Source: Actinoalloteichus fjordicus (GTDB taxonomy: Bacteria > Actinomycetota > Actinomycetes > Mycobacteriales > Pseudonocardiaceae). Taken from it: DNA of 64,000 nt. A model generated the notes under the pieces. It saw nothing but the letters and a program-made list of their open reading frames with translations, was not told the origin of the DNA and searched no databases. A program made the translations under genes and the position numbers. Location: positions 3,348,001 through 3,412,000 of the forward strand of contig NZ_CP016076.1 of the NCBI RefSeq assembly GCF_001941625.1, given 5' to 3'. Within the stretch, counting starts at the first letter, position 1, and each line of letters starts with the position of its first letter. This document shows, one piece after another, positions 8,158-37,121 of this stretch.

Positions 8158-8186
8158 TTGACACTTTTAACTGATCTCGTTAAAGT
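8158..8186 (+). promoter_or_regulatory. Likely sigma70-type promoter upstream of nocN
   Basis: TTGACA (8158-8163), 17-bp spacer, TAAAGT (8181-8186). The spacer and flank contain TTAAC/GTTAA half-sites (CTTTTAAC...GTTAAAG) and an adjacent GTTTAAAC palindrome. This is the only consensus-like promoter before the nocN-nocR-nocL run, and it would leave a leader of about 290 nt. Confidence 0.5.
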
Positions 8187-8328
8187 TTAAACAGTTCGTA
8201 AACTATTCACGGCACTATTGTGCTTATTGAGCAGGGCTTCCTCCGTCAGTCGGCTGCGCGAGCATGCGGTCTCAGCACGGAAGGAGCGTCACACGCCTGC
8301 GGCGTGTCCGACCGTCCATGGGGGAACG

Positions 8329-8487
8329 GTGAACTTCAGCATGTCGAATGGATCGATGACCGGCCGCACCACGTCGGGAGGCCACGCCGCCGCCCGCTCT
8401 TCCCTGCGATCCGTCGGAATCCATGACGACAGCGTCGGACTTCCCCTAGCGGCGCCCGGCGCCCGCGCCAGAGACCGCCACGCATGA
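8329..8487 (+). CDS. Possible short leader ORF overlapping nocN
   Basis: 52 codons from GTG 8329, with GGGGGA just upstream. The stop overlaps the nocN start codon as ATGA (8484-8487). nocN itself lacks a good ribosome site, so translation of this frame could deliver ribosomes to nocN. The peptide (VNFSMSNGSMTG...) matches nothing I know. It may be chance; the coupling geometry is the only support. Confidence 0.3.
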   Translation: MNFSMSNGSMTGRTTSGGHAAARSSLRSVGIHDDSVGLPLAAPGARARDRHA

Positions 8488-9584
8488 CCGGGCACTCCGA
8501 CCGGGCCGTCGACCTGGCCGACCTGGAACGCCTTGCGGCGGCACTCCTGCCCGCCGAGGTCCGCGACTTCATCGCAGGCGGCAGCGGCACCGAACGAACC
8601 CTGGCGGCGAATCGCACGGCGCTGGACGCGACCTACGTCGTTCCCCGGATGCTCGCGGGCGTCGAGGCGGCGGCCACCAGAACGTCGCTCGTGGACACCG
8701 TGGCGGCGCTGCCGCTCGCGGTGGCACCCATGGCCTACCAGCGCCTGGTCCACCCGGACGGGGAACTCGCCGCCGCGCGCGCGGCGGCAGCGGCCGGGGT
8801 GCCGTTCACGGTCAGCACCCTGAGCAGTCGGACGGTCGAGGACATCGCGGGCACCGACGCCGCGCTGTGGTTCCAGCTGTACTGGCTCCGAGACCGAGGC
8901 GTCGTCACGGAGCTGGTGGCGCGGGCGGAGGCCGCAGGCTGTTCGGCGCTCGTCGTGACCGTCGACGTCCCGGTGATGGGCAGGCGGCTGCGCGACGTGC
9001 GCAACGGCTTCGCGCTGCCGTCGTCGGTGCAGGCGGCCCACCTTGCCCCTGGCCCGAGCGGGGCACACGACCGGCGAGCAGGCGGCTCTGCGGTCGCCGA
9101 TCACACGGGGACGGCCTTCGACCCGACGCTCGGCTGGCATGACCTGGAGTGGCTGCGGGCACGCACTCGGCTTCCGTTGGTGGTCAAGGGAGTGCTCGAT
9201 CCGAGGGATGCCGTGCGGTGCGTCGACCTGGGCGCGGCTGCGGTCGTGGTGTCCAACCACGGTGGACGGCAGCTTGACGGTGCGCTGCCCACTGCGCTGG
9301 CGCTGCCTCGTGTCGTCGAGGCGGTGGGTGCGACGGCCGAAGTGTTGGTGGACGGCGGCATTCGCAGCGGTGTCGACGTCCTGCGGGTGTTGGCGCTCGG
9401 TGCGAGCGGTGCGTTGATCGGCAGGCCGATCCTGTGGGGGCTGGCTGTCGACGGCGAGCACGGGGTGGCTCGAGTCCTGCGTCTGCTGGGTGTCGAGCTG
9501 GAGCAGGCGTTGCTGCTTGCGGGATGTGTCGACGTCGCCGCCGCGCGTGATCTCACGACGCACCTCGATTCCTGTCTGCCCTGA
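8484..9584 (+). CDS. nocN: 4-Hydroxymandelate oxidase (Hmo type)
   Basis: 366 aa FMN-dependent alpha-hydroxy acid oxidase. In hydroxyphenylglycine pathways this enzyme oxidises L-4-hydroxymandelate to 4-hydroxybenzoylformate, the keto acid that HpgT then aminates. The family signature with the catalytic His is intact (VVSNHGGRQLDG, about residue 260), followed by the FMN-phosphate segment LVDGGIRSGVDVLRVLALGA. Length is usual for the family (glycolate oxidase/lactate oxidase/HmO). The substrate is inferred from the presence of HmaS and HpgT genes in the same locus. It is first gene of the + strand run nocN-nocR-nocL; 50 bp separate it from nocR. Confidence 0.9.
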   Translation: MTGHSDRAVDLADLERLAAALLPAEVRDFIAGGSGTERTLAANRTALDATYVVPRMLAGVEAAATRTSLVDTVAALPLAVAPMAYQRLVHPDGELAAARAAAAAGVPFTVSTLSSRTVEDIAGTDAALWFQLYWLRDRGVVTELVARAEAAGCSALVVTVDVPVMGRRLRDVRNGFALPSSVQAAHLAPGPSGAHDRRAGGSAVADHTGTAFDPTLGWHDLEWLRARTRLPLVVKGVLDPRDAVRCVDLGAAAVVVSNHGGRQLDGALPTALALPRVVEAVGATAEVLVDGGIRSGVDVLRVLALGASGALIGRPILWGLAVDGEHGVARVLRLLGVELEQALLLAGCVDVAAARDLTTHLDSCLP

Positions 9585-9634
9585 CGGCCGCACGGACCGT
9601 GAACGGCGCTACCGCACCGCGATTCGGAGGCTTC

Positions 9635-11497
9635 ATGACCGAGATGGTGGATTTCCGCTTGTTGGGGCCCTTGGAGGTTCTGGTGCGGGGAGACCAGGTC
9701 CCGATCGGAGGTCCGAGGCAGCGGGTGGTGTTGACGATGCTGCTGCTGAATGCGGGTCGGGTGGTGTCGGTGGACAGCCTGGTCGAGACGGTGTGGGGCA
9801 CGCGGCCGCCGTCGAGCAGTCGGACGCAGGTGGCGATCTGTGTGTCCGCGCTGCGGAAGACGTTCCGGGAGCGCGGGGTCGAGCGGAAGCTGATCGAGAC
9901 TGCGGCGCCGGGGTATGTGCTGCGGCCGGAGGGGCACCGGATGGACACGCTGGTGTTCGAGGAGTTGGTGGCCGAGGCGCGGGCGCGGCGGGGGCGGCTG
10001 GCCGAGGCGGTCCGCTGCTACGACGCGGCGTTGGCGTTGCGGCGTGGACCGGTGCTGTCCAACGTCACCGGGGCGGTGCCGGAGCATGCGGCCACGCAGT
10101 GGGAGGAGAGTCTGCTCGCCGCATATGAGGAGCAGGTGGAGCTGCGGCTGCAGCTGGGTGAGCATCGTCTGCTGGTCGCGGGGCTGGTGGACGCGGTGGA
10201 CCGGCATCCGTTGCGGGACCGGCTGCACGGGTTGTTGATGACGGCGCAGTATCAGTCCGGGCAGCGGGTCGCGGCGTTGGAGACGTTCGTTCGGTGGCGT
10301 CGGCGGTCGATCGAGGAGTTGGGGCTGGAGCCGAGCGTGGAGCTGCGGCGGCTGCACGAGCGGATTCTGCTGGACGAGGGGGGGCCGGTGGTGGATCGGC
10401 CGCCTGCGCAGCTTCCTGCCGCGACGCAGGCGTTCACCGGTCGGGCGGAGTCGTTGGCGGCGTTGGACGGGTTGGCTGCGCGGGGCGGGCGGGGTGGGGC
10501 GCCGCCGCTGGGGTTGTTGGTCGGCGGGGTCGGGGTGGGCAAGACCGCGCTGGCGGTGTGGTGGGGTGCTCGCAATGCCGATCTGTTTCCCGACGGTCAG
10601 TTGTTCGTGGATCTGAGTGGGCATGATCCGCGTCGTGCTCCGGTGGATCCGCACACGGCGTTGACGTATCTGCTGCATGCGTTGGGGGTGCCGCCGGAGC
10701 GGGTGCCCAGTCCTGCGGAGCGGCCTGCGTTGTTTCGTACGTTGGTGGCGGATCGGCGGATGCTGCTGGTGCTCGACGATGCCCGTGACGCCGCGCAGGT
10801 GTGGCCGTTGGTGCCGAACAGTCCGACGTGTCAGGTGTTGGTGACCTCGCGGAGCACGTTGCGTGAGCTGGTGGCGCGGTGTGGGACCGTGCCGTTGCGG
10901 CTCGGTGGTCTGCGCCAGGACGAGGCGGTGCAGCTGGTGCGTGGGATCGTCGGGGCTGCGAGGGTGGGGCGTGATCCGGAGGCGGTGTCTCAGCTCGTCG
11001 AGTTGTGCGGGCGCCTGCCGGGGGCGTTGTCGGCGGCGGCCGCACGGTTGGCGGGCAAGCCGCATTGGGATGTGCCGAGGATGGTGCGGGAGCTGCGTCG
11101 TCCTGCCGGGCGGTTGACCGGGTTCGGTGGTGGGGGGCAGCGGCTGCATGACGGGTTGGCGAGCAGTGCGCGTCGACTGGACCCGGTGGCGGCGCATCTG
11201 TATCAGGCGTTGGGTGGTCTGCCTGCTCCGGAGTTGACGAGTTGGACGGCGGAGGCGTTGTTGGGCTGTTCGGCGCCGGATGCCGATGACGTCTTGGAGC
11301 GGTTGGTGGACGCGCATCTGTTGGAACCGGCTGTCTCCGGTGCCGATGGCGAGGCTCGGTATCGGCTGCCGAGTCTGCCGCACGCCTATGCGGCGGAGTT
11401 GGCGACCGCTCCCCCGCCTGCGCAGGCGGGTGGGTCGGTGAGCGGACGGGAGGCGTCGTCCGGGCTTCGGCGTCCGGCGACCGCCGACGTGACGTGA
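9635..11497 (+). CDS. nocR: AfsR/SARP-family transcriptional activator
   Basis: About 620 aa. Domains in order: OmpR-type winged helix (residues 1-95; DFRLLGPLEVLVRGDQVPIG), bacterial transcriptional activation domain (about 100-245), and an NB-ARC/STAND-like ATPase with P-loop GGVGVGKT (about 295). No clear TPR tail, so it is mid-length between small SARPs and full AfsR. ATG 9635 follows GGAGG by 4 nt; an upstream GTG at 9599 has no site. NocR of Nocardia uniformis is the known positive regulator of nocardicin genes and acts in the nocF/nocA gap, so this protein probably does the same here. I see no TTA codon in the gene, so it seems free of bldA-type control. Confidence 0.88.
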   Translation: MTEMVDFRLLGPLEVLVRGDQVPIGGPRQRVVLTMLLLNAGRVVSVDSLVETVWGTRPPSSSRTQVAICVSALRKTFRERGVERKLIETAAPGYVLRPEGHRMDTLVFEELVAEARARRGRLAEAVRCYDAALALRRGPVLSNVTGAVPEHAATQWEESLLAAYEEQVELRLQLGEHRLLVAGLVDAVDRHPLRDRLHGLLMTAQYQSGQRVAALETFVRWRRRSIEELGLEPSVELRRLHERILLDEGGPVVDRPPAQLPAATQAFTGRAESLAALDGLAARGGRGGAPPLGLLVGGVGVGKTALAVWWGARNADLFPDGQLFVDLSGHDPRRAPVDPHTALTYLLHALGVPPERVPSPAERPALFRTLVADRRMLLVLDDARDAAQVWPLVPNSPTCQVLVTSRSTLRELVARCGTVPLRLGGLRQDEAVQLVRGIVGAARVGRDPEAVSQLVELCGRLPGALSAAAARLAGKPHWDVPRMVRELRRPAGRLTGFGGGGQRLHDGLASSARRLDPVAAHLYQALGGLPAPELTSWTAEALLGCSAPDADDVLERLVDAHLLEPAVSGADGEARYRLPSLPHAYAAELATAPPPAQAGGSVSGREASSGLRRPATADVT

Positions 11498-11706
11498 TGC
11501 GTCGGTTGCGGTCGTGGGCGCGGTGGGGTCGGCCTGCGCGTGTGATGCTCGCGTCGGGCGCGGTGATCGGGCGCCCTTCTCGATCCTCCGGCGGCGGTTC
11601 GGTCTCTGGTCGGGGCCGTGGGGTCCGGCCGGGGGTGCTGGGCTGTCGGCCGGTTGTCACCAGGAGTGTGCTGGACGGTGCATTCCCAGAACTGATGAGG
11701 AGCCCC

Positions 11707-12903: not shown

Positions 12904-13932
12904 TCAGCGTCGGCTTCGGCTGGTGAGGAGGAAGTCGACCACTGCGTCGGCGGCGGAGAGTTGTCGGCTGGTCGTCCCGACGGTGCGGGGCGGGTTGGGG
13001 AACTCGCCGCCCGGCCAGGTGTGTCCGCCGCCGTGGACGACGATGGACTCCACGCGTAGTCCGGTGGTGGGGTTGGTGCAGGTGTCGCGGGTGAGGGAGG
13101 TGCCGTCGGGCTGGTCGGTGTCGGGGAGTTCCTCGTGCCGGTGTTCGTCGGCGCCGCCTGCTCGGCAGAACGCGTTCACGGTGTCGGCGGTGGAGATCGT
13201 CGGTCGGGGTGGTTCCTGCCCGATCGGCGGTGTTCCCTCGGGTGGGGTGGTGAGGCCGTCGATGGGGCGCAGCGGGTCGGCGTCGCCGTAGACGGACAGC
13301 AGCGGGATGGGGCCGCTCGGTTGGACCGGGACGGGCGGCCCCGGGAGTTGGCCTGCCACGGAGGCTGCTGCGGTGAACCAGTCGGGGTGTTCGGCGGCCA
13401 GGCGCAGTGCCATCAGTCCGCCTTCGGAGAAGCCCGCCACGGCGACGCGGTCGGGGTCGATCTGGGTGGTGCTGGTGAGTTCGTCGATCACGGCGCGGGC
13501 GAAGTCGATGTCGGCGTCCGGGTCGGGGCGCAGTGCGGTGGGTTGTGGTGAGGCGCCCCAGCCTTCGTTCGCGCCTTGGAGGTATGCGGCGGCGACGCCG
13601 TGGGCGTCGGCGGCGGCGTTGAGTCCGCTGTAGCGCTCCATCTCGGCGGCGGAGCCGCCTTTGCCGTGCAGGACGAGTATCAGGGGTCTGCCGGGGTGTT
13701 CGGCGGGGCTCTCGGCCATGCGCAGTCGGTAGGAGCGGGGGGTGCCTGCGACGGAGATGTCGCGGAGGGTGGTGACGGCGTCGGTGGCCGGGCGCAGGGC
13801 GGCGGGTGCCTCCTCCCCCGCTGCGGCGGGGTCCGCCGGGGCGGGCGGGGCGGCGGGTTCGGGGGCGGTGCACGCGGTCAACGCCGTGGTGACGGCGATG
13901 GCCAGCGCGCACCGCTGCGGGAGTCCGACCAT
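12904..13932 (-). CDS. nocK: Lipoprotein esterase/depolymerase-like hydrolase
   Basis: 342 aa exported alpha/beta hydrolase of the PHB-depolymerase/feruloyl-esterase-like (LpqC) group. The N-terminus has a hydrophobic segment and lipobox (TALTACTAP). Catalytic parts: HGKGGS oxyanion region, nucleophile elbow GFSEGGLMA, YGDADPLRP (likely acid), and GGGHTWPGG (His). ATG 13932 lies 2 bp after the nocJ stop (TGACCATG), so the genes are co-translated. NocK of N. uniformis is an esterase homologue reported as not essential for nocardicin production. Because it is exported, a role in trimming, deacylation or self-protection outside the cell is conceivable, but this is inference. Confidence 0.85.
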   Translation of the reverse strand: MVGLPQRCALAIAVTTALTACTAPEPAAPPAPADPAAAGEEAPAALRPATDAVTTLRDISVAGTPRSYRLRMAESPAEHPGRPLILVLHGKGGSAAEMERYSGLNAAADAHGVAAAYLQGANEGWGASPQPTALRPDPDADIDFARAVIDELTSTTQIDPDRVAVAGFSEGGLMALRLAAEHPDWFTAAASVAGQLPGPPVPVQPSGPIPLLSVYGDADPLRPIDGLTTPPEGTPPIGQEPPRPTISTADTVNAFCRAGGADEHRHEELPDTDQPDGTSLTRDTCTNPTTGLRVESIVVHGGGHTWPGGEFPNPPRTVGTTSRQLSAADAVVDFLLTSRSRR

Positions 13933-13934
13933 GG

Positions 13935-14954
13935 TCAGCGAGCGTAATGAGCCAGTTCCGGGGGTACCGGCGTCGACACACCTCCGTCCGCCGATCGGGT
14001 GTTTCCGGTGTGCCAGAACAGGTAGGTGCCGTCGTCGGTGGTGTCGGCGTCGGCGAGGAGTCGGGCGAGAGCCTTGGCCCCGTAGCACTCGTCGACGGCG
14101 ATGCCTGCCGTGTCGTGGAGCAGGCGGGCGGCGTGTTCGGACCGGGGGTCGGGCCGACCGTAGGGCGCGGCGGAGTGGCCGTCGACGTGTCGGAGGTGTT
14201 CTGGTCGGACGGCGTGCTCCTCGGCGCCGATCAGGGCGGCCGTCTCTCTGGCGCGGCCCAGCAGGCCTGCTCCGGTGACGGAGGGGTCGCCGACGACGTC
14301 GACGGCGGTCACCTCGAACGGCATCTCGGCGGTGGCCAGTCCGGTGGCCAGTCCGGCGGCGATGCCTGCGGCGGTGAGGGTGGAGGCGGCAGGCAGGTAG
14401 ACCCGCAGCGGGGTGGGCAGGGCCAGTGCGCGGGCCTGGTCGGCGAGTTCTCGGCCTGCCAGGGCGTGAGCGATTCCGGCGACGGGGGCTGCGCCGCCGA
14501 AGGGGATGACGAAGGGGCGTTCGCCTCGGTCGAGGAGTTCGTCGACGGCGGCCTGGTGGCGTGGGCGGGACGGGTGCACCGACACCCCGGTGGGCACGGG
14601 GTGCAGGCGGGCGCCCGCGTTCAGTGCCAGTTGCAGGTTCCGGCGTACGAGCGGGCCGGGTTCCTGGGGCAGGACCAGTGCGGTGACGGCGAGGCCGAGT
14701 CGGGCGGCGTGCAGGGCGGTGGCGGCGATGTGGTTGGAGCCGACGGTTCCTGCGGTGAGCACGGTGGTGGCGTCGGCCTGCGTGGCGGCGCCGAGGACGA
14801 ACTCCAGTGCCCTGGTCTTGCAGCCGCCGAAGATCGACGAGTTCTCGTCGTCGCGTTTGAGGTGGATTCGGCGGCGGCACAGCCCTGCGAGCGGTTGGAT
14901 GCGGGTCGGTGTGGTGGTCAGTGCGACGCGGGGCGGTGCGGCGGGCTCGGTCAA
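13935..14954 (-). CDS. nocJ: ACC-deaminase/D-cysteine-desulfhydrase-like PLP enzyme (side-chain epimerase)
   Basis: About 339 aa fold-type II PLP enzyme. The PLP-lysine region is IFGGCKTRALEF, preceded by LKRDD; the substrate/PLP segment GTVGSNHIAATA and the Gly-rich VYLPAASTLTAAG follow. The family deaminates 1-aminocyclopropane-1-carboxylate or desulfhydrates D-cysteine. In nocardicin biosynthesis NocJ is assigned to inversion of the homoseryl alpha-carbon (isonocardicin to nocardicin series). The start is inferred as TTG 14954, overlapping the nocI stop (TTGA); this gives the family's normal length, whereas the frame up to 15041 would add Arg-rich sequence. It is middle gene of nocI-nocJ-nocK. 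Confidence 0.84.
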   Translation of the reverse strand: MTEPAAPPRVALTTTPTRIQPLAGLCRRRIHLKRDDENSSIFGGCKTRALEFVLGAATQADATTVLTAGTVGSNHIAATALHAARLGLAVTALVLPQEPGPLVRRNLQLALNAGARLHPVPTGVSVHPSRPRHQAAVDELLDRGERPFVIPFGGAAPVAGIAHALAGRELADQARALALPTPLRVYLPAASTLTAAGIAAGLATGLATAEMPFEVTAVDVVGDPSVTGAGLLGRARETAALIGAEEHAVRPEHLRHVDGHSAAPYGRPDPRSEHAARLLHDTAGIAVDECYGAKALARLLADADTTDDGTYLFWHTGNTRSADGGVSTPVPPELAHYAR

Positions 14955-15175
14955 GCCGAGTCTCCGGCGGCCTGGCGCAGCGCCTCGCGCAGGCTGCGGG
15001 GTCGCATGTCGGTCCAGTGTTCGTCGATCCAGTCCAGGCACTGCTGTTTCGGGCCTCGGGTGCCGACGGTGTGCCAGCCTGCCGGGACGTCTCGGTCGGC
15101 GGGCCAGATCGAGTACTGCTCCTCGTCATTGATCACGACGTCGAATTCGGCGGATTTTTCATTGTCTCCCAGCAC
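14951..15175 (-). CDS. nocI: MbtH-like NRPS partner protein
   Basis: 74 aa. Carries the MbtH signature: VVINDEEQYSIWPADRDVPAGWHTVG, then the KQQCLDWIDEHWTDMRPRSL tail with its conserved tryptophans. MbtH proteins bind adenylation domains and are often needed for their activity; NocI is reported to be required for NocB adenylation. GTG 15175 is chosen because GGAGG lies 8 nt upstream and it gives the usual family length; upstream in-frame ATGs would add a non-homologous tail. First gene of the nocI-nocJ-nocK unit, divergent from nocH. Confidence 0.93.
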   Translation of the reverse strand: MLGDNEKSAEFDVVINDEEQYSIWPADRDVPAGWHTVGTRGPKQQCLDWIDEHWTDMRPRSLREALRQAAGDSA

Positions 15176-15239
15176 TTGAAATACCTCCACGCAGTTTTTT
15201 GGGGACATGTTAGCGAGGGGTCTTTTCATTTCGTTATCG

Positions 15240-15275
15240 TTGCCAGGGGCTTCTTTTGGTGGTTATTCTCGCGGC
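15240..15275 (+). promoter_or_regulatory. nocH promoter giving a leaderless transcript
   Basis: TTGCCA (15240-15245), 18-bp spacer, TATTCT (15264-15269), then 6 nt to GTG 15276. No ribosome site is present before the start. The element sits in the roughly 100-bp AT-richer gap between divergent nocI and nocH. Confidence 0.55.
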
Positions 15276-16520
15276 GTGGTGATCACCCGGGGGGCGGAGC
15301 GTTTCGGATTTCCCCGGATGCGGGGACTGGGCAGGTTGGCGATCACGGCGGGTGTGGACAGTCTCGGCAGTGGTCTGTTTCTTCCGTTCACCATTCCGTA
15401 CTTCCTGGCCGTCACCGATCTGGGGCTGGTGGCCGTCGGTGCGGCGTTGTCGGTGGCCGCGCTCGCGGGGGTGCCTGCCGGTGTGCTGACGGGTCCGTTG
15501 GTGGACCGGTTCGGTGCGACTGCGGTGATCGTCGGCTGCAACGTGCTGCGGTGTGTCGGCTTCCTGTCCTATCTGTGGGTGGACACGCCGTGGCAGTTGA
15601 TGCTGGCGGCGGCGATGATCTACTGGGCCGACGGGGCGTGGCTGCCTGCGCAGGGGACGATGGTGGTGGCCCTGGTGGGGCTGGAGCAGCAGCCGCGTTG
15701 GTTCGCGTTGATCCGGTCCACGCGCAATGCGGCGCTGGGGTTGGGCGGGATCGTCGCGGCGTCGGTGGTCGGGTTCGGTGACATCGGTTATCACGCGTTG
15801 GCGGTGTCCAATGCGGTCAGTTATGTGCTCGTGGCGGTGCTCATCGGCACCTGGCCGAAGGCGCGAGCGTTGGCGGGCAGGCGGGCGGCGGTGGCGCGGC
15901 CGAGGGCGACCGGCGGCTACCGGCGGGTCCTGCGGGATCGGCCGTTCATGCTGCTGGTGGTGGCCAACGGGTTCTTCGTGGTCGCGGTGTACGCGATCAT
16001 CCTGTTGGTGCCCGCCTATGTCGGGTTGACGTTGCCGGGGTATGCGTGGCTGCCGGGGGCGTTGTACACGGTCAACACGGTGCTGGTGGTGGTGGCGCAG
16101 CCGCCGGTGGTCCGGTGGACCGAGAAGCGGGCCGAGACGGGGGTGCTGCGGCTGGCGGCGGTGGTGTGGGCGTTGGCGTTCGTCGTGTTGGCGACCTCGG
16201 CGTTGTTGCCGCCGCTGCCTGCGCTGGTGGCGTTGTTCCTGGGTGTGGTGGTGTTCACGGTGGCGGAGTTGTTGTTCGCACCGACCAGTTCCGCGTTCGC
16301 CGCGCGGTTGGCTCCGCCGGACATGCGGGGCCGGTATCTCGGGGTGCATCAGATGTCCTGGGGGATGGCCATGGTGGTGGCTCCGGTGTTGTTCACCGGT
16401 CTGTTGGCGCAGGGGACGGTGTGGCCGTGGCCGGTGCTCGTCGGCTGTTGCGCGGTGGCGTGGCTGGCGGTGGGCGGGGCGCGGGCCTCGCGGGTGGCTG
16501 CGGCGGCGGCGCGGGTGTGA
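15276..16520 (+). CDS. nocH: MFS efflux transporter
   Basis: About 414 aa membrane protein of the major facilitator superfamily, with about 12 hydrophobic segments and the loop 2-3 motif variant GPLVDRFGATAV (GxxxDRxG). Such genes in antibiotic clusters normally export the product and give self-resistance; NocH is the transporter of the N. uniformis locus. GTG 15276 (or the adjacent GTG 15279) is chosen from the leaderless promoter, although a later start near 15318 is possible because the first about 15 residues are polar. The stop is 10 bp from the convergent nocG stop. Confidence 0.9.
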   Translation: MVITRGAERFGFPRMRGLGRLAITAGVDSLGSGLFLPFTIPYFLAVTDLGLVAVGAALSVAALAGVPAGVLTGPLVDRFGATAVIVGCNVLRCVGFLSYLWVDTPWQLMLAAAMIYWADGAWLPAQGTMVVALVGLEQQPRWFALIRSTRNAALGLGGIVAASVVGFGDIGYHALAVSNAVSYVLVAVLIGTWPKARALAGRRAAVARPRATGGYRRVLRDRPFMLLVVANGFFVVAVYAIILLVPAYVGLTLPGYAWLPGALYTVNTVLVVVAQPPVVRWTEKRAETGVLRLAAVVWALAFVVLATSALLPPLPALVALFLGVVVFTVAELLFAPTSSAFAARLAPPDMRGRYLGVHQMSWGMAMVVAPVLFTGLLAQGTVWPWPVLVGCCAVAWLAVGGARASRVAAAAARV

Positions 16521-16530
16521 GCGGTGTGTG

Positions 16531-17832
16531 TCAGGTGCCTGCTTGGCGGGCGTGGTCGGTGATGAACTCGGCGAGGCGGTCCAGCCCGAGGTCGATCTCG
16601 TCGGGGGTGAGCAGGCTGACCGACAGGCGCAGGTGCGGCATCGCGGTGCCGTCGCCGTAGAAGTGGTGCATCGGGGTCCACAGCACGCGGTGCTCGCGGG
16701 CGGAGCGCTCCAGCAGTGCGTCGTCCACGGGGAAGGGCACGGTCACGACGATGAAGAAGCCGCCTGCGGGGCTGTTCCAGCGCACGCCCAGCCGGTGTGC
16801 GTCGGGGAGTCGGGCGGCGAGGCCGTCGAGGACCTGTTCGCGGTTGCGGCGGTAGACCTCGATCTCGCGGGTGTTGGCCTTGACGAGGCTGTGTCCGTGT
16901 TCCAGGAGCAGGCCGCCGATCACGGCCTGGGCGATCGGCGGGGTGTTGACGGTGATCATGCTCTTGAGTCGGGAGAGCTGGTCGGCCAGTGGGATGGTGC
17001 GTCCGTCGCCGACGTCAACGGGCTGGTCGGCGACGGCGTAGCCGATGCGGGCGCCGGGGAATCCGGTCTTGGCGTAGGAGCCGAGGGACACCACGCGGTC
17101 GCCGCCGAGGGCCTTCAGTGTGGGTGGGCGGTCGTCGGTGGAGCCGAACAGGCGGTAGGGGTTGTCCTCGAGGATCAGGAGGTCTTCGTCGGCGGCCACG
17201 CGCAGCAGTTCCGAGCGGAGTCGGCGGTCGAGGGTGGCGCCGGAGGGGTTGGCGAAGTCGGGGACCACGTAGAGGGCTCTGGGGCGCAGGCCTGCGGCGC
17301 GGGCGCGGCGCGCGGCGGCCGTGAGGTCGTCGAGGTCCACGCCTGCGGGGCCGTCGCGTACGGGGAGCACTGGCATCTCGACGAGGCGGGCGGCCCCGGT
17401 GATGCCGACGTACACCGGGGACACGGCCAGCAGGACGTCGTGTGGGTCGGCGCGCAGGGCGCGCAGGACGAGCAGCATGGCCTCCTGCGCGCCGACGGTG
17501 ACCACGATGGACTCCGGGTCGACGTGGACTGCCTCGTCCTCGGCCAGGTTGCGGGCGATCAGGTCGTGGATGATGCCCTTGGTGCGGCCGTACTGGAACA
17601 GTGTTCGGCGTGCTCCTGCGGCGTCCATTCCCTGGTCCTCGACGAGGTGTCGGTGGAAGGTGCGCAGGTATCGGTGCAGGTCCTCGACGTCGAAGAACTC
17701 CTCGTAGGGCCGTCCCGGGGCGAAGGACACGGCTTCCGGGTAGCGGTGGGCGACCTCGTTGAGGAACTCCATGGCGGCCAGCACCGGGTCGGCCAGCGAG
17801 CCGTGCAGGTCGGTCAGGCGCAGCGGGTCCAT
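16531..17832 (-). CDS. nocG: 4-Hydroxyphenylglycine aminotransferase (HpgT)
   Basis: 433 aa fold-type I PLP aminotransferase. It transfers the amino group, typically from L-tyrosine, to 4-hydroxybenzoylformate, giving L-4-hydroxyphenylglycine plus 4-hydroxyphenylpyruvate, which feeds back to HmaS. Visible: PLP Asp/Tyr region YVVPDFANPSG, SLGSYAKTGFPGARIGYA with the Schiff-base Lys, and the VRWNSPAGGFF substrate loop. ATG 17832 follows GGAGG by about 9 nt; a longer frame to 17856 would place this site inside the gene. It is downstream of nocF by 52 bp on the same strand, so likely co-transcribed. Confidence 0.91.
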   Translation of the reverse strand: MDPLRLTDLHGSLADPVLAAMEFLNEVAHRYPEAVSFAPGRPYEEFFDVEDLHRYLRTFHRHLVEDQGMDAAGARRTLFQYGRTKGIIHDLIARNLAEDEAVHVDPESIVVTVGAQEAMLLVLRALRADPHDVLLAVSPVYVGITGAARLVEMPVLPVRDGPAGVDLDDLTAAARRARAAGLRPRALYVVPDFANPSGATLDRRLRSELLRVAADEDLLILEDNPYRLFGSTDDRPPTLKALGGDRVVSLGSYAKTGFPGARIGYAVADQPVDVGDGRTIPLADQLSRLKSMITVNTPPIAQAVIGGLLLEHGHSLVKANTREIEVYRRNREQVLDGLAARLPDAHRLGVRWNSPAGGFFIVVTVPFPVDDALLERSAREHRVLWTPMHHFYGDGTAMPHLRLSVSLLTPDEIDLGLDRLAEFITDHARQAGT

Positions 17833-17884
17833 CGGCGTTCCCCTCCGGGCGGGCACGGCGTCGGGGTCTGGTGTTCGGGTGCGG

Positions 17885-29847: not shown

Positions 29848-32800
29848 CGCTGCGCGTGCGCGACCTGTTCGCCGACGACGCCGACGAGACCACCGCGCAG
29901 GTGGCCGAGTGGAACGACACCGCCCGCGACCGCCCCACCGACGTGGGCGTCCACCACCTGGTGCGGCGGCAGGCGGCCGAACACGGCGCGCGTCCTGCCG
30001 TCACCTTCGACGGGTCGACGGTGACCTACGCACAGCTGGACGCGGCGGCCGCCGCACTGGCAGGCAGGCTGATCGGGCTGGGCGTGCGGCCCGGCGACGT
30101 GGTGGCCGTCGCGATGCCCCCGTCGGCCGACCGGATCACCGCCGTGCTCGGCGTGCTCTACGCGGGCGCGGCCTACCTGCCGCTGGATCCGGAACTGCCC
30201 GCCCGGCGACTGGAGTTCCTGCTCGCCGACGCGGACGCGAGCGCGCTGATCACCGACACGGCCGCGCGGGCCGGACAGCTCCGGCACGACGGCCCGGTCC
30301 TGTCCTTCGACGCCCCCTCGCCCGACCCCGAGCCCACCGGCGCGACGACGACGGAGCAGGCGGCGTTCCCCGGCGCCGACCTGGTGGCGTACGTCATCTA
30401 CACCTCCGGCTCCACCGGCCGCCCCAAGGGCGTGGCGGTGAATCACCGCAGCCTGGTCAACCGACTGCTCTGGATGCGCGACCGCTACCAGGTCGGCCCC
30501 GAGGACGTGATCCTGCACAAGACCTCCTTCAGCTTCGACGTGTCGGTGTGGGAGCAGCTGCTGCCGCTGATCAGCGGCGCCCGCCTGGTGGTCACCCCGG
30601 AGGCCACGAGACGAGACTCCGGGGCGCTGGTGACGCTCATTCGCGACGAGTCCGTGACGATGCTGCACTTCGTGCCGTCGCTGCTGCCCGCCTTCCTCGA
30701 CGTGGCGGGCGTGGTCCAGGCCGCGACGCTGCGGGTGGCGATCTCCAGTGGTGAGGCACTGCCCAAGCCGATGGCGGCCGAGTTTGCGCGCACCCTCCCG
30801 CACTGCGCGCTGCACAACCTCTACGGACCCACCGAGGCCACCATCGACGTCACCCACTGGGCGGTCGACGCCGCCGACGAACGGCCGTTCGTGCCCATCG
30901 GCACCCCGATCGACAACACCTCCGTCCACGTGCTCGACGACGACCTCACGCCGCTGCCGGTCGGCTCGGAGGGCGAGCTGTGCATCGGCGGACGCGCCGT
31001 CGCCGTCGGCTACCTCGGCCGAGGGTCGTTGACGGCGGAGCGGTTCGTGCCCGATCCGTTCGGCGACCCCGGCGACCGCCTCTACCGCACCGGAGACCGG
31101 GCCCGCTTCGGGCCCGACGGCGCCGTGGAGTACCTGGGCAGGCGGGACGGACAGGTCAAGCTGCGCGGCTACCGCATCGAACTGGGCGAGATCGAGTCCG
31201 CGCTGCTGGAGTCCGACCTGGTCGGTCAGGCCGCGGTGGTGCTGCGGGGCGTCGACGGGGCCCGGCGGCTGGTCGGGTTCGTCTCCGGCCGCCCCGAGAC
31301 GGCAGCCGAGCGGGAGCAGGCCGCCGCCCAGGTGCTGGCCACGGTGGCGGCCGCTCTGCCCGCGTACCAGGTGCCCGCCGAACTGGTCTGGCTGGACACC
31401 CTGCCGCTGACCACCTCGGGCAAGATCGACCGGGCGGCCCTGCCCGAGGTGACCGTGCAGCGGTCCGCTGCGGCGCCCGAGACGCCCACCGAACAGGCCA
31501 TCGCGAGCCTGTGGGCCGAGTTGATCGGCGCCGGGGAACCCGGTCTGGACGACGACTTCTTCCGCTCCGGCGGCGACTCGGTGTCCAGCATGCGGCTGGC
31601 CGCTCGCGCCCAGCGCGAGGGCATCCGCCTGGAGGTCGCCACGATCTTCACCGACCGCACCGTCCGAGGCATGGCCGCCTCGGCGGACCGGGCCGCGTCG
31701 ACGCCCGCCGTCGAGTCGCCGTCGGACGCGGCGGGCGCGGACGCGCTGACGGCGGGCATCGACGAGGCACAGCTGGCGTCGGTGCGCGACCGGCCCGGTG
31801 TCGTCGACGTCTACCCGCTGGCGCCCATGCAGGCCGGGATGCTGTTCCGAGGGCTGTACTGGCCCGACTCCGACGCCTACTTCAACCAGAACGTGCTGGA
31901 GCTGGTGGGCGGAGTCGACGAGGCCGCGCTGCACGAGGCGTGGCGGCGGGTCGCCGACCGGTACGAGATCCTGCGCACCGGCTTCGTCTGGGAGGAACTG
32001 GCCGAACCGCTGCAGTACGTGCGCTCCGACGTCCAGCCGCCGTGGACGACGCTGGACTGGTCGCAGGAGAGCCCCGACCGGCACGCCGAGCTGTTGGAAC
32101 GGCTGTTGGCGGACGACCGCGCGGCCGGTCTGGGCCTGGACGCCTGCCCCCTGTACCGGCTCACCCTGGTGCGTCGAGGCGACCAGGGCCACTACCTACT
32201 GTGGAGTCATCACCACATCCTGCTCGACGGCTGGTGCCTGTCGCTGATCTGGGGCGACATGTTCCGCATCTACGAGGACCTCGTGCAGGGTCGGGAACCA
32301 CAGCTTTCGCCGTGCAGGCCCTACCGGGACTACGTGGGCTGGATCCGGGCGAAGACCGCGCAGGGCGACGAACCGGAACGGTTCTGGCGGGAGTACCTGG
32401 CCGAGTTGTCGCCCACCCCGTTCTCCGAGGCGCCCTCGGACCGGGAGGGTCTGTTCCACACGATCGTCCACGAGTTCACCGAGTCGCTGACCGAGCTGGT
32501 CGCCGAGGCCTCCCGCCGTTACGGCGTCACCTCCAACGCGATCACCCAGGCCGCGTGGAGCATGCTGCTGGCCCTGCGATCCGGCGCCGAGGACGTCGTG
32601 CACGGCCTGACCATCGCGGGCCGCCCGCCGGAGCTGGCCGGGTCCGAGCTGATGGTCGGGCTGTTCATCAACACGATCCCGCTGCGCATCCGGCTCGACC
32701 CGGATCGGACGGTGACCGAACTGCTGGACGCCATCCACCGTGACCTCGCCATCACCTCCGCGCAGGGCCATGTCCCGTTGGCCCAGATCAAGTCGTGGGC

Positions 32801-35612
32801 GGGCGGCACCCGGCTCTCCGGCGGTCGGGTCTTCGACAGCCTCGTGGCCTTCGAGAACTACCCCGAGGACAACCTGCCCGGCGACGACGAGCTGAGCATC
32901 CAGGTCATCGACCTGCACGCCCAGGAGAAGACCGAATATCCCATCGGGCTGATCGTGCTCCCGCTGGAGAAGCTGGCCTTCCACTTCAACTACGACACCA
33001 CGCACTTCACCGCCGCCGAGGTCGACCGGCTGATCGCGACCTTCCAGCTGCTGATGGAGCAGCTCTGCACCCGCCCGAGCGCCCGACTGCGCGAACTGGA
33101 CGTCACCCCCGCCGCCGACCGGGAGCTGCTGGCGGACTGGAACTCCACCACGACGGACGAACCGGACGCGGCGACCCTGCTCGCCCTGTTCACCCGCAGC
33201 CTCGCCGCCGCCCCGCACGCCCCGGCCGTGGTGGAGGGCGACACGGTGGTGAGCTACACCGACCTGAACGCCCGCGCCGCCGCTCTGGCCGGACGTCTCG
33301 CCGAGGCCGGGGTGGCGCGCGGCGACCTGGTGGCCCTCTGCCTGCCGAGGTCGACGGCGTTCGTCACGGCCCTGCTGGCCGTCCACCGGCACGGCGCGGT
33401 GCCGGTCCTGCTCGACCCGGACCACCCGACCGCCCGACAGCACACGATCGCCGCCGACGCCGGGGTGGCCGCCGTCCTCACCAGCGGCGACCCGGCCGGG
33501 TTCGCCGCCTGGCCGGTGATCCACCCCGACGGCACGGTCACGGCACCGACCGGCCCGCCGAGCCGCACCCGAGGCGTCGCCGACCCGGACCGCGACGCCT
33601 GCCTGGTCTACACCTCCGGTTCCACCGGCACCCCCAAGGGCGTCCTGGCACCCCAGGCCGGGCTGGTCAACCGGATCGTGTGGTCCGGCACGGCGTTTCC
33701 CACCGAGCAGCCGCCACGGGTGTCGGCCACGGCGGGCACCGCGTTCGACATCGCGCTGTGGGAGGTGTTCTTCCCGCTGGCCCACGGCGGCACCGTCGTC
33801 ATCGTTCCGCACGAGGTCGTGCTCGACGCGGACCGGCTCGCGGAGCTGCTGCGCGCCGAGAAGGTGTCGGTCGCCCACCTGCTGCCCACCCTCCTCGCCG
33901 CGTTCCTCGACGGCCCCGAGGCCGCGCACTGCACCGGGCTGCGCCACGTGCTCTCCGGCGGCGAGGCCGTGAGCCCCGCCCTGGTCCGGGCGTTCGCCTA
34001 CTCGGGCCTGGACGCGCTCCTGCACCAGGCCTACGGCCCGGCCGAGGCCTCCATCAGCGTCACCCACCACACCTGCACGCCCGAGGACGGCCTCGGCGAT
34101 CGGGTGCCGATCGGACGGCCGATCGACAACACCACCGTGCACGTGGTCGATGCGCACCTGCGGGAGGTGCCCGTCGGGTGCGTCGGTGAACTGGCGACCG
34201 CCGGGATCGCCGTGGGCGCGGGATACCTCGGCGACGCCGACCTCACCGCCCGACGATTCCCCGCCAACCCCTTCGGCGAGGGCAGGCTCTACCTCACCGG
34301 CGACCGCGCGCGATGGCGAACGGACGGGACGCTGGAGTTCCTCGGTCGAGACGACCGGCAGGTGAAGGTGCGCGGCCACCGCGTCGAACCCGCCGAGATC
34401 GACCGCACCGCCGAGGAACACCCCACCGTGCGGCACGCCGTCACGGTCGTCCACGACGGCGCACTGACCACGTTCGCCGTGCCCCGCGCCGGAGCCGCGC
34501 TCGACCCCGGTGCACTGCGCCGCCTGCTGGTCGAACGCCTGCCGGACTGGATGATCGGCGGAATCACCGTGCTCGACGCCCTGCCGGTGACCGGCAACGG
34601 CAAGGTCGACCAGCGCAGGCTGACCGAGCTCGCGGGCGCCGCGGACGCGCAAGCCGGGGCGGAGGCGTCCCGGCCGCCGACCACCGAGTTGGAACAGCTG
34701 ATCGCCCGCTGCTGGGAAGAGGTGCTCGGCGTCAGCGGCATCGGCGCGCACGACGACTTCTTCGACCTCGGCGGCCACTCGCTGCTCGTGGTGCGGCTGT
34801 TGCGGGTCCTGCGCGAGAACCTGCCCGCCGGGATGCGCTGCGACGTACCCCAGATCCTTAAGGCGGGCACCGTCGCCGGGCTCGCCGAGCAGCTCCTCGG
34901 CCCGGTCGCCGGGTCGGGCTCCCAGCACGTGCACACTCTCAACCCGGACGCGACCGGCGGGGCGCTGTTCCTCGTGCATCCCGGCGAGGGCCTCGCGCTG
35001 CCCTACCACGGGCTGGCGCCACTGCTGCCCGAGTGGCGGCTGCACGTGCTCTCCGATCCCCGGTTCGGGCAGCCGGACCACCGCTTCGGCACCCTCGCCG
35101 AGATGGCCACCCGCTACGTCGAATGGGTGCGCACCCTCGAACCCGAAGGGCCGTACCACCTCGGCGGCTGGTCCTTCGGCGGCGTGGTCGCCCTGGAGAT
35201 GGCCCGACAGATGCAGGCACACGGGGACGTGGTCACCGACGTCCTGCTCATCGACAGCCATAACCTCAACGCCACCGCGCCGACCGGCGATCCCCGCGAG
35301 GGCATCCGAGCGCGGCTGGTCGAGCTGGGCGTGGACGCCGACTCTCCCGAGGGCGTCGACCTCGCCGACGAACTGGAGCACAACGGCGGCCTCGCCGCCC
35401 GCTACCCGCAGCCCGCCTACCCGGACCGGGTATCGCTGCTGTCGGTCGACGCCGGCGACCGCGACGCCGCCCGCCCACACGGCTGGGATCGGGCTTTGTT
35501 CCCCGGTCTGGTCGTCACGACCGTGCCCGGCGACCACGAGCGGCTCTTCGACACCGATCACCTGCCCGACACGGCTGCCGCCGTCCGCGACGCACTGGGG
35601 GAGAACCGATGA
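29844..35612 (+). CDS. nocB: Nonribosomal peptide synthetase, modules 4-5 with thioesterase (NocB)
   Basis: 1922 aa: A4 (about 30-540), T4 (Ser 579), C5 (HHH 789-791 in HHHILLDGWC), A5 (about 1100-1570), T5 (Ser 1646), TE (GWSFGG, Ser 1777). The A4 code reads D-V-W-H-I-S-L-I-D, essentially the serine code; A5 reads D-I-W-H-L-G-A-I-S, like A1/A3, so Hpg. In N. uniformis NocB, C5 dehydrates the seryl residue and closes the beta-lactam using the first His of HHHxxxDG (His790 there, 789 here). The TE has Asp 1804, Ser 1777 and His 1898 as triad, plus His 1806 two residues after the Asp, matching the bifunctional epimerase-hydrolase TE (1806/1779/1901/1808 there, by memory). GTG 29844 overlaps the nocA stop (GTGA), so translation is coupled; C4 for Ser sits at the end of NocA. 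Confidence 0.94.
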   Translation: MTLRVRDLFADDADETTAQVAEWNDTARDRPTDVGVHHLVRRQAAEHGARPAVTFDGSTVTYAQLDAAAAALAGRLIGLGVRPGDVVAVAMPPSADRITAVLGVLYAGAAYLPLDPELPARRLEFLLADADASALITDTAARAGQLRHDGPVLSFDAPSPDPEPTGATTTEQAAFPGADLVAYVIYTSGSTGRPKGVAVNHRSLVNRLLWMRDRYQVGPEDVILHKTSFSFDVSVWEQLLPLISGARLVVTPEATRRDSGALVTLIRDESVTMLHFVPSLLPAFLDVAGVVQAATLRVAISSGEALPKPMAAEFARTLPHCALHNLYGPTEATIDVTHWAVDAADERPFVPIGTPIDNTSVHVLDDDLTPLPVGSEGELCIGGRAVAVGYLGRGSLTAERFVPDPFGDPGDRLYRTGDRARFGPDGAVEYLGRRDGQVKLRGYRIELGEIESALLESDLVGQAAVVLRGVDGARRLVGFVSGRPETAAEREQAAAQVLATVAAALPAYQVPAELVWLDTLPLTTSGKIDRAALPEVTVQRSAAAPETPTEQAIASLWAELIGAGEPGLDDDFFRSGGDSVSSMRLAARAQREGIRLEVATIFTDRTVRGMAASADRAASTPAVESPSDAAGADALTAGIDEAQLASVRDRPGVVDVYPLAPMQAGMLFRGLYWPDSDAYFNQNVLELVGGVDEAALHEAWRRVADRYEILRTGFVWEELAEPLQYVRSDVQPPWTTLDWSQESPDRHAELLERLLADDRAAGLGLDACPLYRLTLVRRGDQGHYLLWSHHHILLDGWCLSLIWGDMFRIYEDLVQGREPQLSPCRPYRDYVGWIRAKTAQGDEPERFWREYLAELSPTPFSEAPSDREGLFHTIVHEFTESLTELVAEASRRYGVTSNAITQAAWSMLLALRSGAEDVVHGLTIAGRPPELAGSELMVGLFINTIPLRIRLDPDRTVTELLDAIHRDLAITSAQGHVPLAQIKSWAGGTRLSGGRVFDSLVAFENYPEDNLPGDDELSIQVIDLHAQEKTEYPIGLIVLPLEKLAFHFNYDTTHFTAAEVDRLIATFQLLMEQLCTRPSARLRELDVTPAADRELLADWNSTTTDEPDAATLLALFTRSLAAAPHAPAVVEGDTVVSYTDLNARAAALAGRLAEAGVARGDLVALCLPRSTAFVTALLAVHRHGAVPVLLDPDHPTARQHTIAADAGVAAVLTSGDPAGFAAWPVIHPDGTVTAPTGPPSRTRGVADPDRDACLVYTSGSTGTPKGVLAPQAGLVNRIVWSGTAFPTEQPPRVSATAGTAFDIALWEVFFPLAHGGTVVIVPHEVVLDADRLAELLRAEKVSVAHLLPTLLAAFLDGPEAAHCTGLRHVLSGGEAVSPALVRAFAYSGLDALLHQAYGPAEASISVTHHTCTPEDGLGDRVPIGRPIDNTTVHVVDAHLREVPVGCVGELATAGIAVGAGYLGDADLTARRFPANPFGEGRLYLTGDRARWRTDGTLEFLGRDDRQVKVRGHRVEPAEIDRTAEEHPTVRHAVTVVHDGALTTFAVPRAGAALDPGALRRLLVERLPDWMIGGITVLDALPVTGNGKVDQRRLTELAGAADAQAGAEASRPPTTELEQLIARCWEEVLGVSGIGAHDDFFDLGGHSLLVVRLLRVLRENLPAGMRCDVPQILKAGTVAGLAEQLLGPVAGSGSQHVHTLNPDATGGALFLVHPGEGLALPYHGLAPLLPEWRLHVLSDPRFGQPDHRFGTLAEMATRYVEWVRTLEPEGPYHLGGWSFGGVVALEMARQMQAHGDVVTDVLLIDSHNLNATAPTGDPREGIRARLVELGVDADSPEGVDLADELEHNGGLAARYPQPAYPDRVSLLSVDAGDRDAARPHGWDRALFPGLVVTTVPGDHERLFDTDHLPDTAAAVRDALGENR

Positions 35613-36553
35613 CGACCCTGCCTGCGACGAGCCTGTCGGAGACCGCCCGCCGTTCGCCTGAACGCGCGGTGGAGACCTACGTCGAGGGCAGGCCGTACGA
35701 CCTGTTCTATCTGTCGTCCGCCGGACGGCGGCTGGTGGGCCGCAAGACCGAGGCCGCCTATCCCGGCCCGGATCTCGGCGACGGACCGGTCGAGCGGCTC
35801 AAGGGCTGCCTGGTCGAGCCGGGGATGCTGCTGGGCATCGTCGAACGGGAGCAGGTGGCCGAGGACCACGTCGCGGTCTTCCATCGGCCGCTGGACGAGG
35901 CGGAGAAGGCGGCGCTGTTCGCCGAGGCCGCCGCCGATCCCCTGACCGACCTGTACTACCCCTTCGCGCAGCTCGGCGACCGAGTCCGCGAGGCCGCCGC
36001 GACCGAGGAGGGCGGGTGGGAGGTCACCGAGGAGTTCGTCGCCGAACTCGACCACGCCGAGTCGGTCCTGCGGGACTACGTGCCGCAGCGACTCGCCGAG
36101 CTGGGATTCCTCGGCGGCATCGCCTACGACGCCGCCTGCTCGACGGGGGCGTTCCTGTCGGCCGTCGGCCGCCGCTTCCCCGACGTCCGCACCGTCGGTC
36201 AGGACCTCAGCGCGGCGATGGTCGAGCACGCCCGGTCTCGGGTGGACGAGGTCCACTGTGGCGACAGCATCCGCCCCGCGATCCCGGCGGGCAGCGCGGA
36301 CCTGGTGGTGTGCCGCCATCTCAACGCCTTCGTCGTCGGCACCGACCAGGCCCACGACCTGTTGGCGGCGGCGGTGAGCCGCTGCCGAGACGGCGGGCTG
36401 ATCGTGCTGCTCGGCCACACCCCGATCCTGATCAGCACCCAGTGGTGTGAGATGGCCGGACTGGAGGTGGTGCAGCGCTCGGCGGCCACCCCGTCCGGTC
36501 ATGCGCTGTTCCAGTGCTACGTGCTGCGCAAGGGAGGGAGTCGGGATGGGTGA
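35609..36553 (+). CDS. nat: SAM-dependent transferase, probable 3-amino-3-carboxypropyltransferase Nat
   Basis: 314 aa. The C-terminal half is a class I SAM-binding Rossmann fold: AYDAACSTGAFLSAVGRRF (motif I), VRTVGQDLSAAMVEHA (acidic residue after beta2), IPAGSADLVVCRHL (motif II/III). The N-terminal about 165 residues are unlike common methyltransferases. In nocardicin biosynthesis Nat moves the 3-amino-3-carboxypropyl group of SAM, not methyl, onto the phenol ether oxygen of nocardicin G; Nat is of about this size. Its start overlaps the nocB stop by ATGA, strongly linking it to the pathway. I infer Nat from position, size and fold; a methyltransferase giving a new tailoring is the alternative. 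Confidence 0.72.
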   Translation: MTTLPATSLSETARRSPERAVETYVEGRPYDLFYLSSAGRRLVGRKTEAAYPGPDLGDGPVERLKGCLVEPGMLLGIVEREQVAEDHVAVFHRPLDEAEKAALFAEAAADPLTDLYYPFAQLGDRVREAAATEEGGWEVTEEFVAELDHAESVLRDYVPQRLAELGFLGGIAYDAACSTGAFLSAVGRRFPDVRTVGQDLSAAMVEHARSRVDEVHCGDSIRPAIPAGSADLVVCRHLNAFVVGTDQAHDLLAAAVSRCRDGGLIVLLGHTPILISTQWCEMAGLEVVQRSAATPSGHALFQCYVLRKGGSRDG

Positions 36554-37121
36554 CGAGCCGCCCGCCGACCACGCGAGCCTGCTTCCCCGCCTGGCCGCTG
36601 AGCGAGTGGTCTTACGGGCGTTCCGGCCGGCGGACGCGGCGGCGTTGGCCGCCTACCGCTCCGATCCGGCGGTGGCCCGCTACCAGGCCTGGGACACGCC
36701 CCTGTCGGAGGAGCAGGCGGCCGAGTCCATCGCGGGCCGCGCCCGCGCCGACCCGGACCAGCCGGGCTGGACGCCCTACGCCGTCGCACTCGACGGCGTC
36801 CTGATCGGCGACGTCGGTGTGAACCTGCACGACAACCGAATGCAGGCCGACATCGGGTTCACGCTCGCCTCGGCGTTCCACGGGCGCGGCTACGCCACCG
36901 AGGCGGTCGGGCGCGTCCTGGACCACCTGTTCCTGGACCGGGGGCTGCACCGGGTCTCCGCCGAGTGCGATCCCCGGAACGACGCCTCCGTGCGGCTGCT
37001 CGACCGCCTCGGCTTTCGCCGCGAAGGTCTCCGGCGAGCCAACACGTGGTTGCGCGGCGAATGGGCCGACGACCTGCTCTTCGGCCTGCTGGCTGCCGAC
37101 TACCGCGCCGCGCGGGGGTGA
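36546..37121 (+). CDS. GNAT-family acetyltransferase at end of the NRPS operon
   Basis: 191 aa RimJ/RimL-type acetyltransferase: RLAAERVVLRAFRPADA N-terminus, GDVGVNLHDNRMQADIGF, the acetyl-CoA loop HGRGYATEAVGRVL and NDASVRLLDRLGF. ATG 36546 overlaps the nat gene by 8 bp and has GGAGG about 7 nt upstream. The N. uniformis cluster also includes an acetyltransferase-like gene (nocD by memory), so it may correspond. It may N-acetylate an intermediate or product for self-protection, or be unrelated. It converges with the NmrA-like gene, marking the right edge of the cluster. Confidence 0.85.
   Translation: MGDEPPADHASLLPRLAAERVVLRAFRPADAAALAAYRSDPAVARYQAWDTPLSEEQAAESIAGRARADPDQPGWTPYAVALDGVLIGDVGVNLHDNRMQADIGFTLASAFHGRGYATEAVGRVLDHLFLDRGLHRVSAECDPRNDASVRLLDRLGFRREGLRRANTWLRGEWADDLLFGLLAADYRAARG

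Follow-up and report, generated by a model that had tools for sequence, protein, structure and literature searches.

A nocardicin-type gene cluster of Actinoalloteichus fjordicus, its probable relic in a sister species, and a possible distant relative in Parachitinimonas caeni

The genome of Actinoalloteichus fjordicus, an actinomycete from a marine sponge, is a single contig of 7,120,854 bp, and one stretch of it (hereafter the window: 64,000 nucleotides, bases 3348001-3412000) raises the question of whether it encodes a complete pathway to a monocyclic beta-lactam of the nocardicin type, as claimed in a preliminary description made from the sequence alone. Thirteen genes spanning window positions 8484-37121 were identified with Pfam and NCBIfam models. 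All of the nocardicin pathway classes named in that description were recovered at that place, and the locus is very probably a complete nocardicin biosynthetic gene cluster, judging by its sequence. This identity is already in print and is not new: Table 5 of a 2017 study lists cluster 13 of 28 of A. fjordicus DSM 46855T as 'Nrps, Nocardicin', the clusters being called by antiSMASH 4.0 plus manual curation (PMC5676828). That entry is almost certainly the cluster in the window, whose location about 47% along the chromosome fits rank 13 of 28, provided that Table 5 runs along the chromosome. In the available text of that paper the cluster occupies the table row and two sentences, and no gene-level account of it was found there. 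No further publication devoted to the A. fjordicus nocardicin cluster was found in the literature searched.

The nocardicin cluster of Nocardia uniformis ATCC 21806, with NocA and NocB, was reportedly described by Gunsior and colleagues in 2004, and the comparison with N. uniformis made here was that of the thioesterase (TE) sequence alone. Actinosynnema mirum (genome G023) was taken as the nocardicin reference because strain DSM 43827 is called a producer of nocardicin antibiotics in its genome paper (PMC3035213), its TE does not differ from the crystallised NocB TE (PDB 6ojc) at any of 234 residues and has its serine at position 1779, the number given for NocTE in PMC6711958, and the HHH of its fifth condensation domain (C5) lies at residues 790-792. 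In the protein-by-protein comparison that the preliminary description had recommended, every one of the 13 window genes had a counterpart in A. mirum, in the same order and orientation and with 65-80% identity, the best segments covering 0.86-1.00 of each window query. Chance can be set aside, all 13 genes being collinear. The module layout and the TE and C5 signatures were also the same. The compact, divergent gene order, presented earlier as a distinguishing trait of this locus, is the conserved one and recurs in A. mirum. One difference was an extra gene of 1490 residues (Golvesin_C domain) located after the GNAT gene in A. mirum, for which tblastn at 1e-5 gave no match in the window or the six further regions retrieved (that of G060 being cut by a contig end). 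This gene may correspond to nocE, one of the N. uniformis genes for which the preliminary description saw no equivalent.

The core of the cluster is a pair of nonribosomal peptide synthetases (NRPSs). The first, of the NocA type (19069..29847, + strand; 3592 aa; 68-69% identity to A. mirum NocA), was read from Pfam and motifs as A1-T1-C2-A2-T2-C3-A3-T3-E3-C4, where A, T, C and E denote adenylation, thiolation, condensation and epimerisation domains; Pfam counted three A, three T and four condensation-type domains, one of which is E by motif. The second, of the NocB type (29844..35612, +; 1922 aa; 76% to A. mirum NocB), was read in the same way as A4-T4-C5-A5-T5-TE, with two A, two T and one C domain plus the TE in Pfam. 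The five-module pair with a NocA/NocB-like domain order described earlier was thereby recovered, with E in module 3 and the TE at the C-terminus. Nine pocket positions, taken from the GrsA numbering, were read in each A domain. The pockets were DIWHTCAIT (A1), DVENMIAIG (A2), DIWHVCTII (A3), DVWHASLID (A4) and DIWHVSAIS (A5); those of A3, A4 and A5 equal A. mirum at nine of nine positions, and those of A1 and A2 at eight of nine each, so that two of 45 positions differ overall. By comparison with A. mirum, the predicted order of substrates is Hpg-Arg-Hpg-Ser-Hpg (Hpg, 4-hydroxyphenylglycine), which is the pentapeptide predicted for nocardicin in PMC6097109, where the C5 mechanism is also given.

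C5, the beta-lactam-forming domain by homology, carries the active-site motif HHHILLDG (32208..32231, +; NRPS 2 residues 789-796) and shares 80% identity with C5 of A. mirum; HHHxxxDG has been reported for the beta-lactam-forming C domain (PMC6711958). The possibility, raised in the preliminary description, that the NRPS modules might fall outside the NocA/NocB clade was examined with a tree of 170 C and E domains, comprising 39 from eight assembly lines (seven actinobacterial and one from Parachitinimonas caeni, described below) and 131 others from 62 loci. As these 131 outside domains belong to loci brought in by a TE search, among the matches listed, they are an uneven sample of C domains. 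All five C/E domains of the window grouped with their A. mirum counterparts, each in a seven-member clade of its own (support 0.996-1.0), C5 lying inside the NocB C5 clade with support 1.0. The terminal TE (34896..35609, +; 389 bits to 6ojc NocB) is of the NocTE type, an epimerase/hydrolase by homology. It shares 77% identity with the NocB TE, has its serine nucleophile in GWSFGG and conserves 13 of 13 inspected positions, namely Ser1779, Asp1806, His1808, Leu1810, Arg1826, His1901, Arg1903 and six more.

The predicted products are pro-nocardicin G and then nocardicin A-type compounds. Every chemical step proposed here is deduced by orthology from the pathway of N. uniformis and A. mirum, and Nat, NocJ and the P450 are given the gene names and putative tailoring roles that they have in nocardicin biosynthesis. 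HmaS, HmO and HpgT would supply L-4-hydroxyphenylglycine, and the two NRPSs, aided by the MbtH protein, would assemble Hpg-Arg-Hpg-Ser-Hpg, with E3 epimerising the third residue. C5 would dehydrate the T4-bound serine, add the amine of Hpg5 and close the beta-lactam; the TE would then epimerise the last Hpg before releasing pro-nocardicin G, which a peptidase would trim to nocardicin G. Addition of a 3-amino-3-carboxypropyl ether by the Nat-like enzyme, inversion of this side chain by the NocJ-like enzyme and oxime formation by the P450 would lead to nocardicin A.

Several observations weigh against this reading. The roles of Nat, NocJ and the P450 rest on position and A. mirum orthology, no dedicated trimming peptidase was recognisable, and HmaS exceeds the cut-off of TIGR01263, the general model of 4-hydroxyphenylpyruvate dioxygenase (HPPD). 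HHHxxxDG is found in C4 of all eight assembly lines as well, in the window as HHHILLDG (28966..28989, +; NRPS 1 residues 3300-3307), and in one of the 131 other C domains, seven more showing no HHxxxD in the scanned stretch. Since C4 carries it too, the motif was rejected as sufficient proof of ring closure. Finally, one pocket position departs from A. mirum in A1 (T for V) and one in A2 (M for V).

These two pocket differences, and a NocJ-like protein only 67% identical to that of A. mirum, speak for a nocardicin-type line with another end product, stopping at nocardicin G, C or E or using another leader residue, through diverged tailoring. This is unlikely, given that the NocL-like P450 (79%), Nat (77%) and the NocJ-like protein all have intact frames and that the A2 pocket of G137, another cluster of the family, has the same M. 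A silent or decaying relic was also considered, because little of the cluster is left at the same locus in genome G002, taken as that of the sister species A. hoggarensis; with all 13 window frames open to a single terminal stop and the inspected catalytic motifs kept, such a state is very improbable here. A different Hpg peptide without a beta-lactam, like the glycopeptides or the calcium-dependent antibiotic, whose pathways also hold Hpg enzymes and Hpg-rich NRPSs, can practically be dismissed in view of the orthology of C5, TE and Nat, the nocardicin-specific clades of the C domains, the single P450 and the absence from the 13 genes of lipid-initiation and halogenase families. Ring closure of the sulfazecin type was rejected: SulI/SulM also make a monocyclic beta-lactam on NRPSs, but after N-sulfonation (PMC6097109) and with a cysteine TE (SulM Cys2818; PMC11298585), whereas the nucleophile of the window TE is serine.

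The other genes of the nocardicin cluster comprise the complete Hpg supply plus the MbtH protein. HmO, a 4-hydroxymandelate oxidase (8484..9584, +), matches Pfam FMN_dh with 407 bits and is 75% identical to the same-position A. mirum gene. HpgT, a 4-hydroxyphenylglycine aminotransferase (16531..17856, -; Aminotran_1_2; 80% to A. mirum), owes its name to synteny because no NCBIfam model exceeds its cut-off. HmaS, a 4-hydroxymandelate synthase of the HPPD family (17885..18940, -; TIGR01263, 340 bits), scores above the general HPPD cut-off, so that its name rests on context and the 72% match to the A. mirum gene; it shares 38% identity with the product of a second, HPPD-like gene in this genome. 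The MbtH-like protein is encoded at 14951..15229 (-; Pfam MbtH, 80 bits).

The three tailoring proteins are orthologues of the same-position A. mirum genes. The Nat-like gene (35609..36553, +; 77%), a putative 3-amino-3-carboxypropyl transferase whose start overlaps the NRPS stop by four bases, has the S-adenosylmethionine (SAM) fold, in agreement with the SAM-binding protein noted earlier in this position. The NocJ-like protein (13935..15041, -; 67-70% to A. mirum), a fold-type II enzyme dependent on pyridoxal phosphate (PLP) and a putative side-chain epimerase, matches Pfam PALP, and the NCBIfam models of the 1-aminocyclopropane-1-carboxylate deaminase/D-Cys desulfhydrase family below their cut-offs; it is 32% identical to its own paralogue. 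The cytochrome P450 (11494..12903, +; Pfam) is NocL-like and presumably forms the oxime, with 79% identity to A. mirum and 91% to genome G025. The cluster also contains a Streptomyces antibiotic regulatory protein (SARP)-family activator (9599..11497, +; Trans_reg_C, BTAD, NB-ARC; 73% to A. mirum), a major facilitator superfamily (MFS) exporter (15207..16520, +; Pfam; 77%), a putative esterase or S9-like alpha/beta-hydrolase (12904..13935, -; Pfam/NCBIfam; 65%) and a GNAT acetyltransferase (36447..37121, +; Pfam; 68%), which belongs to the cluster set, A. mirum having one too. By position we take the esterase to be NocK, the MbtH-like protein NocI, the MFS exporter NocH and the acetyltransferase NocD. 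The esterase was rejected as an essential part, as it was not found in the G025 cluster; a nocK knock-out is said to have still made nocardicin. Some listed open reading frames (ORFs) may be too long at their starts. Homologue matches begin at residue 44-72 of the P450 (later in one contig-cut match), where its true start probably lies, and at residue 1-24 of the MFS exporter, whose start may be shifted inwards by up to 24 residues. For GNAT, the genes annotated in other clusters encode 185-192 residues vs 224 in the listed ORF, and the true start is probably further downstream.

A TE search within the family matched eight of 390 genomes, including the window's own, and the regions of the other seven were compared. 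Genomes G117 and G118 have 13 of the 13 genes, G025 has 12, lacking the esterase, and G137 and G147 have 11, HmO and GNAT not being in the cluster region (the closest HmO-like proteins elsewhere in these two genomes reach 41%); the cluster of G060 is cut by a contig end. The set had been described as near-minimal. It does represent a conserved core, but the same 13 genes are shared with A. mirum, G117 and G118, and G025, G137 and G147 have smaller sets, so that the window is not unusually reduced. It is a well-preserved, ordinary member of a known family. With a Nat profile, four of 397 genomes of the order matched, among them the window's own and a G002 fragment, and one of 396 genomes of the phylum, again the window's own. 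As a side observation, an enolase-superfamily (MR_MLE) gene is located between MFS and HpgT in G137 (L027:12911-13897) and G147, 80% alike in the two; it adjoins HpgT in G137 and MFS in G147, within a stretch of 9 kb and 5 kb, respectively, of which the window has no equivalent. The two clusters bearing it are the two without HmO.

The sister species A. hoggarensis is scored as having the nocardicin cluster in PMC5676828. Genome G002 is here assumed to be that of A. hoggarensis. No TE match at 1e-30 was found in it, and nothing closer than 31% to NocJ or 38% to HmaS; the Nat profile found an 84-residue fragment. The published presence call is unsupported by this genome. A scar lies instead at G002:C1:3182476-3185132. 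One of its flanks matches the window as far as 7290 and the other from 37211 onwards, with 29,921 bases of the window and 2,656 of G002 lying in between. Six collinear DNA fragments in the scar match window 8283-8669, 15113-15148, 15194-15519, 15843-15896, 36011-36263 and 36777-37136, covering the HmO end, MbtH/MFS, Nat and GNAT; protein-level matches are limited to pieces of MFS, Nat and GNAT, the HmO-end piece being a DNA match of 69.5%. The scar looks like what several deletions have left of a complete cluster. Such fragments at the cluster's own locus point to loss rather than gain, for this species pair at least, and the matching flanks with the outermost remnants at 8283 and 37136 give independent support for the limits of the window cluster. 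A tyrosine recombinase gene (Phage_integrase; window 3581-4636) to the left of the cluster lies within the flank common to G002 and is therefore not obviously part of any mobility of the cluster.

In a scan of named genomes, a TE 44-46% alike over nearly its full length was found, among the matches listed, in the betaproteobacterium Parachitinimonas caeni DQS-5. It belongs to an operon of closely spaced genes on one strand of contig NZ_JARRAF010000019.1 (97,765 bp). A FAD-NAD(P)-binding protein of 577 aa is encoded upstream of NRPS 1. Motifs and sequence, rather than Pfam, give the order C-A-T-C-A-T-E-like-C for NRPS 1, and NRPS 2 has the Pfam architecture A-T-insert-C-A-T-TE, the insert being about 380 residues long. 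An E-domain profile found nothing in the 385 residues that separate T from C in this NRPS 2; its other match, to a member of its own training set, was left out as circular. Directly downstream, with a four-base stop/start overlap as in the window, is a Nat homologue (41%). The operon further holds a protein with 22 KRPQ repeats in 482 residues and LGG at residues 13-15; an adjoining ATP-grasp-like protein, without Pfam or NCBIfam match, whose fold was assigned by visual inspection; an HpgT homologue (33%); a class A beta-lactamase (NCBIfam bla_class_A, 221 bits, cut-off 200) with SxxK, SDN and KTG present; an ATP-binding cassette (ABC) exporter with a C39 peptidase domain, plus HlyD; MbtH; a PLP enzyme (34% to NocJ); an FMN_dh protein (38% to HmO); and, at its far end, a glycosyltransferase and an S9 peptidase. 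Also encoded is an HmaS-like protein of 173 aa and one domain (L129:7035-7556), whose best solved relative is PCZA361.1 (2r5v), a hydroxymandelate synthase. In the alignments the 173-aa protein keeps two His and, in a very weak segment, a Glu, presumably the iron ligands, so it may be a minimal HmaS.

The P. caeni operon resembles the nocardicin clusters in its NRPS pair, its TE (46%) and its homologues of Nat, HpgT, MbtH, the PLP enzyme and FMN_dh. It differs in having four modules, the first starting with C instead of five beginning A1-T1, in the beta-lactamase, C39-ABC/HlyD, ATP-grasp-like, KRPQ-repeat and one-domain HmaS-like proteins, and in that no P450 was seen in the operon. Its C5 carries HHHxxxDG and lies in the NocB C5 clade, sister to the seven actinobacterial C5 domains (46-47% identity vs 37% to the next best C domain); in the 170-domain tree its C4 and C5 are sister to nocardicin C4 and C5 with support 0.998 and 1.0, and the grouping of C3 and C2 is weak (0.592 and 0.188). 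The last three A pockets (DIWHVASIF, DVWHICYID and DIWHVSGIS) are compatible with Hpg, Ser and Hpg. The first A domain resembles window A2, with acidic residues, by eye, at two further pocket positions. The TE agrees with NocB at six of the 13 inspected positions and differs at seven; the Ser/Asp/His triad, Ser1807, Phe1780 and Leu1810 are kept, and Tyr, His and Val stand at 1808, 1826 and 1716. No catalytic role was found for His1808 in PMC6711958. In the NocJ tree the PLP enzyme splits off along the long branch that separates NocJ from the outgroup. At 34%, its identity to NocJ barely exceeds the 30-32% of ordinary paralogues, which makes it no more than a candidate orthologue; the same caution applies to the HpgT- and HmO-like proteins.

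On these sequence features, it is an evenly balanced proposition that nocardicin-type ring formation extends beyond actinomycetes, the P. caeni operon being a second, separately evolved nocardicin branch. This branch would place Hpg-(beta-lactam)-Hpg on another leader residue, a basic one, carry a class A beta-lactamase of its own for self-protection, and use a single-domain hydroxymandelate synthase and a flavoprotein replacing the P450. The product may be coupled to the ribosomal KRPQ-repeat peptide via the ATP-grasp-like protein, with export by the C39-ABC protein. The GC content is 59.8-63.9% from the NRPSs to the glycosyltransferase; of the four 4-kb segments fully upstream, three have 52-55% and the fourth 61.9%. 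In the last segment it is 53.6%, so the S9 peptidase may not belong to the operon. ParB and ArsA genes are located nearby, which makes acquisition on a mobile replicon plausible. No report of this operon was found in the literature searched on nocardicin in proteobacteria or on nocardicin-like clusters; the genus itself turned up in one paper, among other names in a list. Beyond P. caeni, no Nat homologue was found at 1e-15 in the 300 genomes of its order or the 398 of its phylum that were sampled, and the four TE matches just below it (31-36%, among the matches listed) were not accompanied by any match at 1e-4 to Nat, ten window proteins or five P. caeni proteins. None of 46 pattern matches in viral contigs was confirmed, and the plasmid collection gave three records with partial matches (31.5% and 27.6%). 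One plasmid, of Pantoea eucrina (L148:16381-18597), carries a YcaO gene and a 132-base ORF, immediately followed, with no NRPS alongside, by a gene for a distant Nat-like protein whose match (31.5%) spans 65% of the P. caeni Nat; this locus possibly directs a ribosomal peptide with an aminocarboxypropyl group.

The window cluster adds one complete, clean orthologue to a rare monocyclic beta-lactam pathway; it is of use as an enzyme source but conceptually not new. What deserves following up is the relic in A. hoggarensis and the operon in P. caeni. According to a 2022 review, no epimerising thioesterase has, to its authors' knowledge, been described for any other assembly line (PMC8949500). 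If the reading of P. caeni is true, a Gram-negative nocardicin-type line with a beta-lactamase gene would show which parts of C5 and TE are essential, and would serve as an independent test of ring closure by C5.

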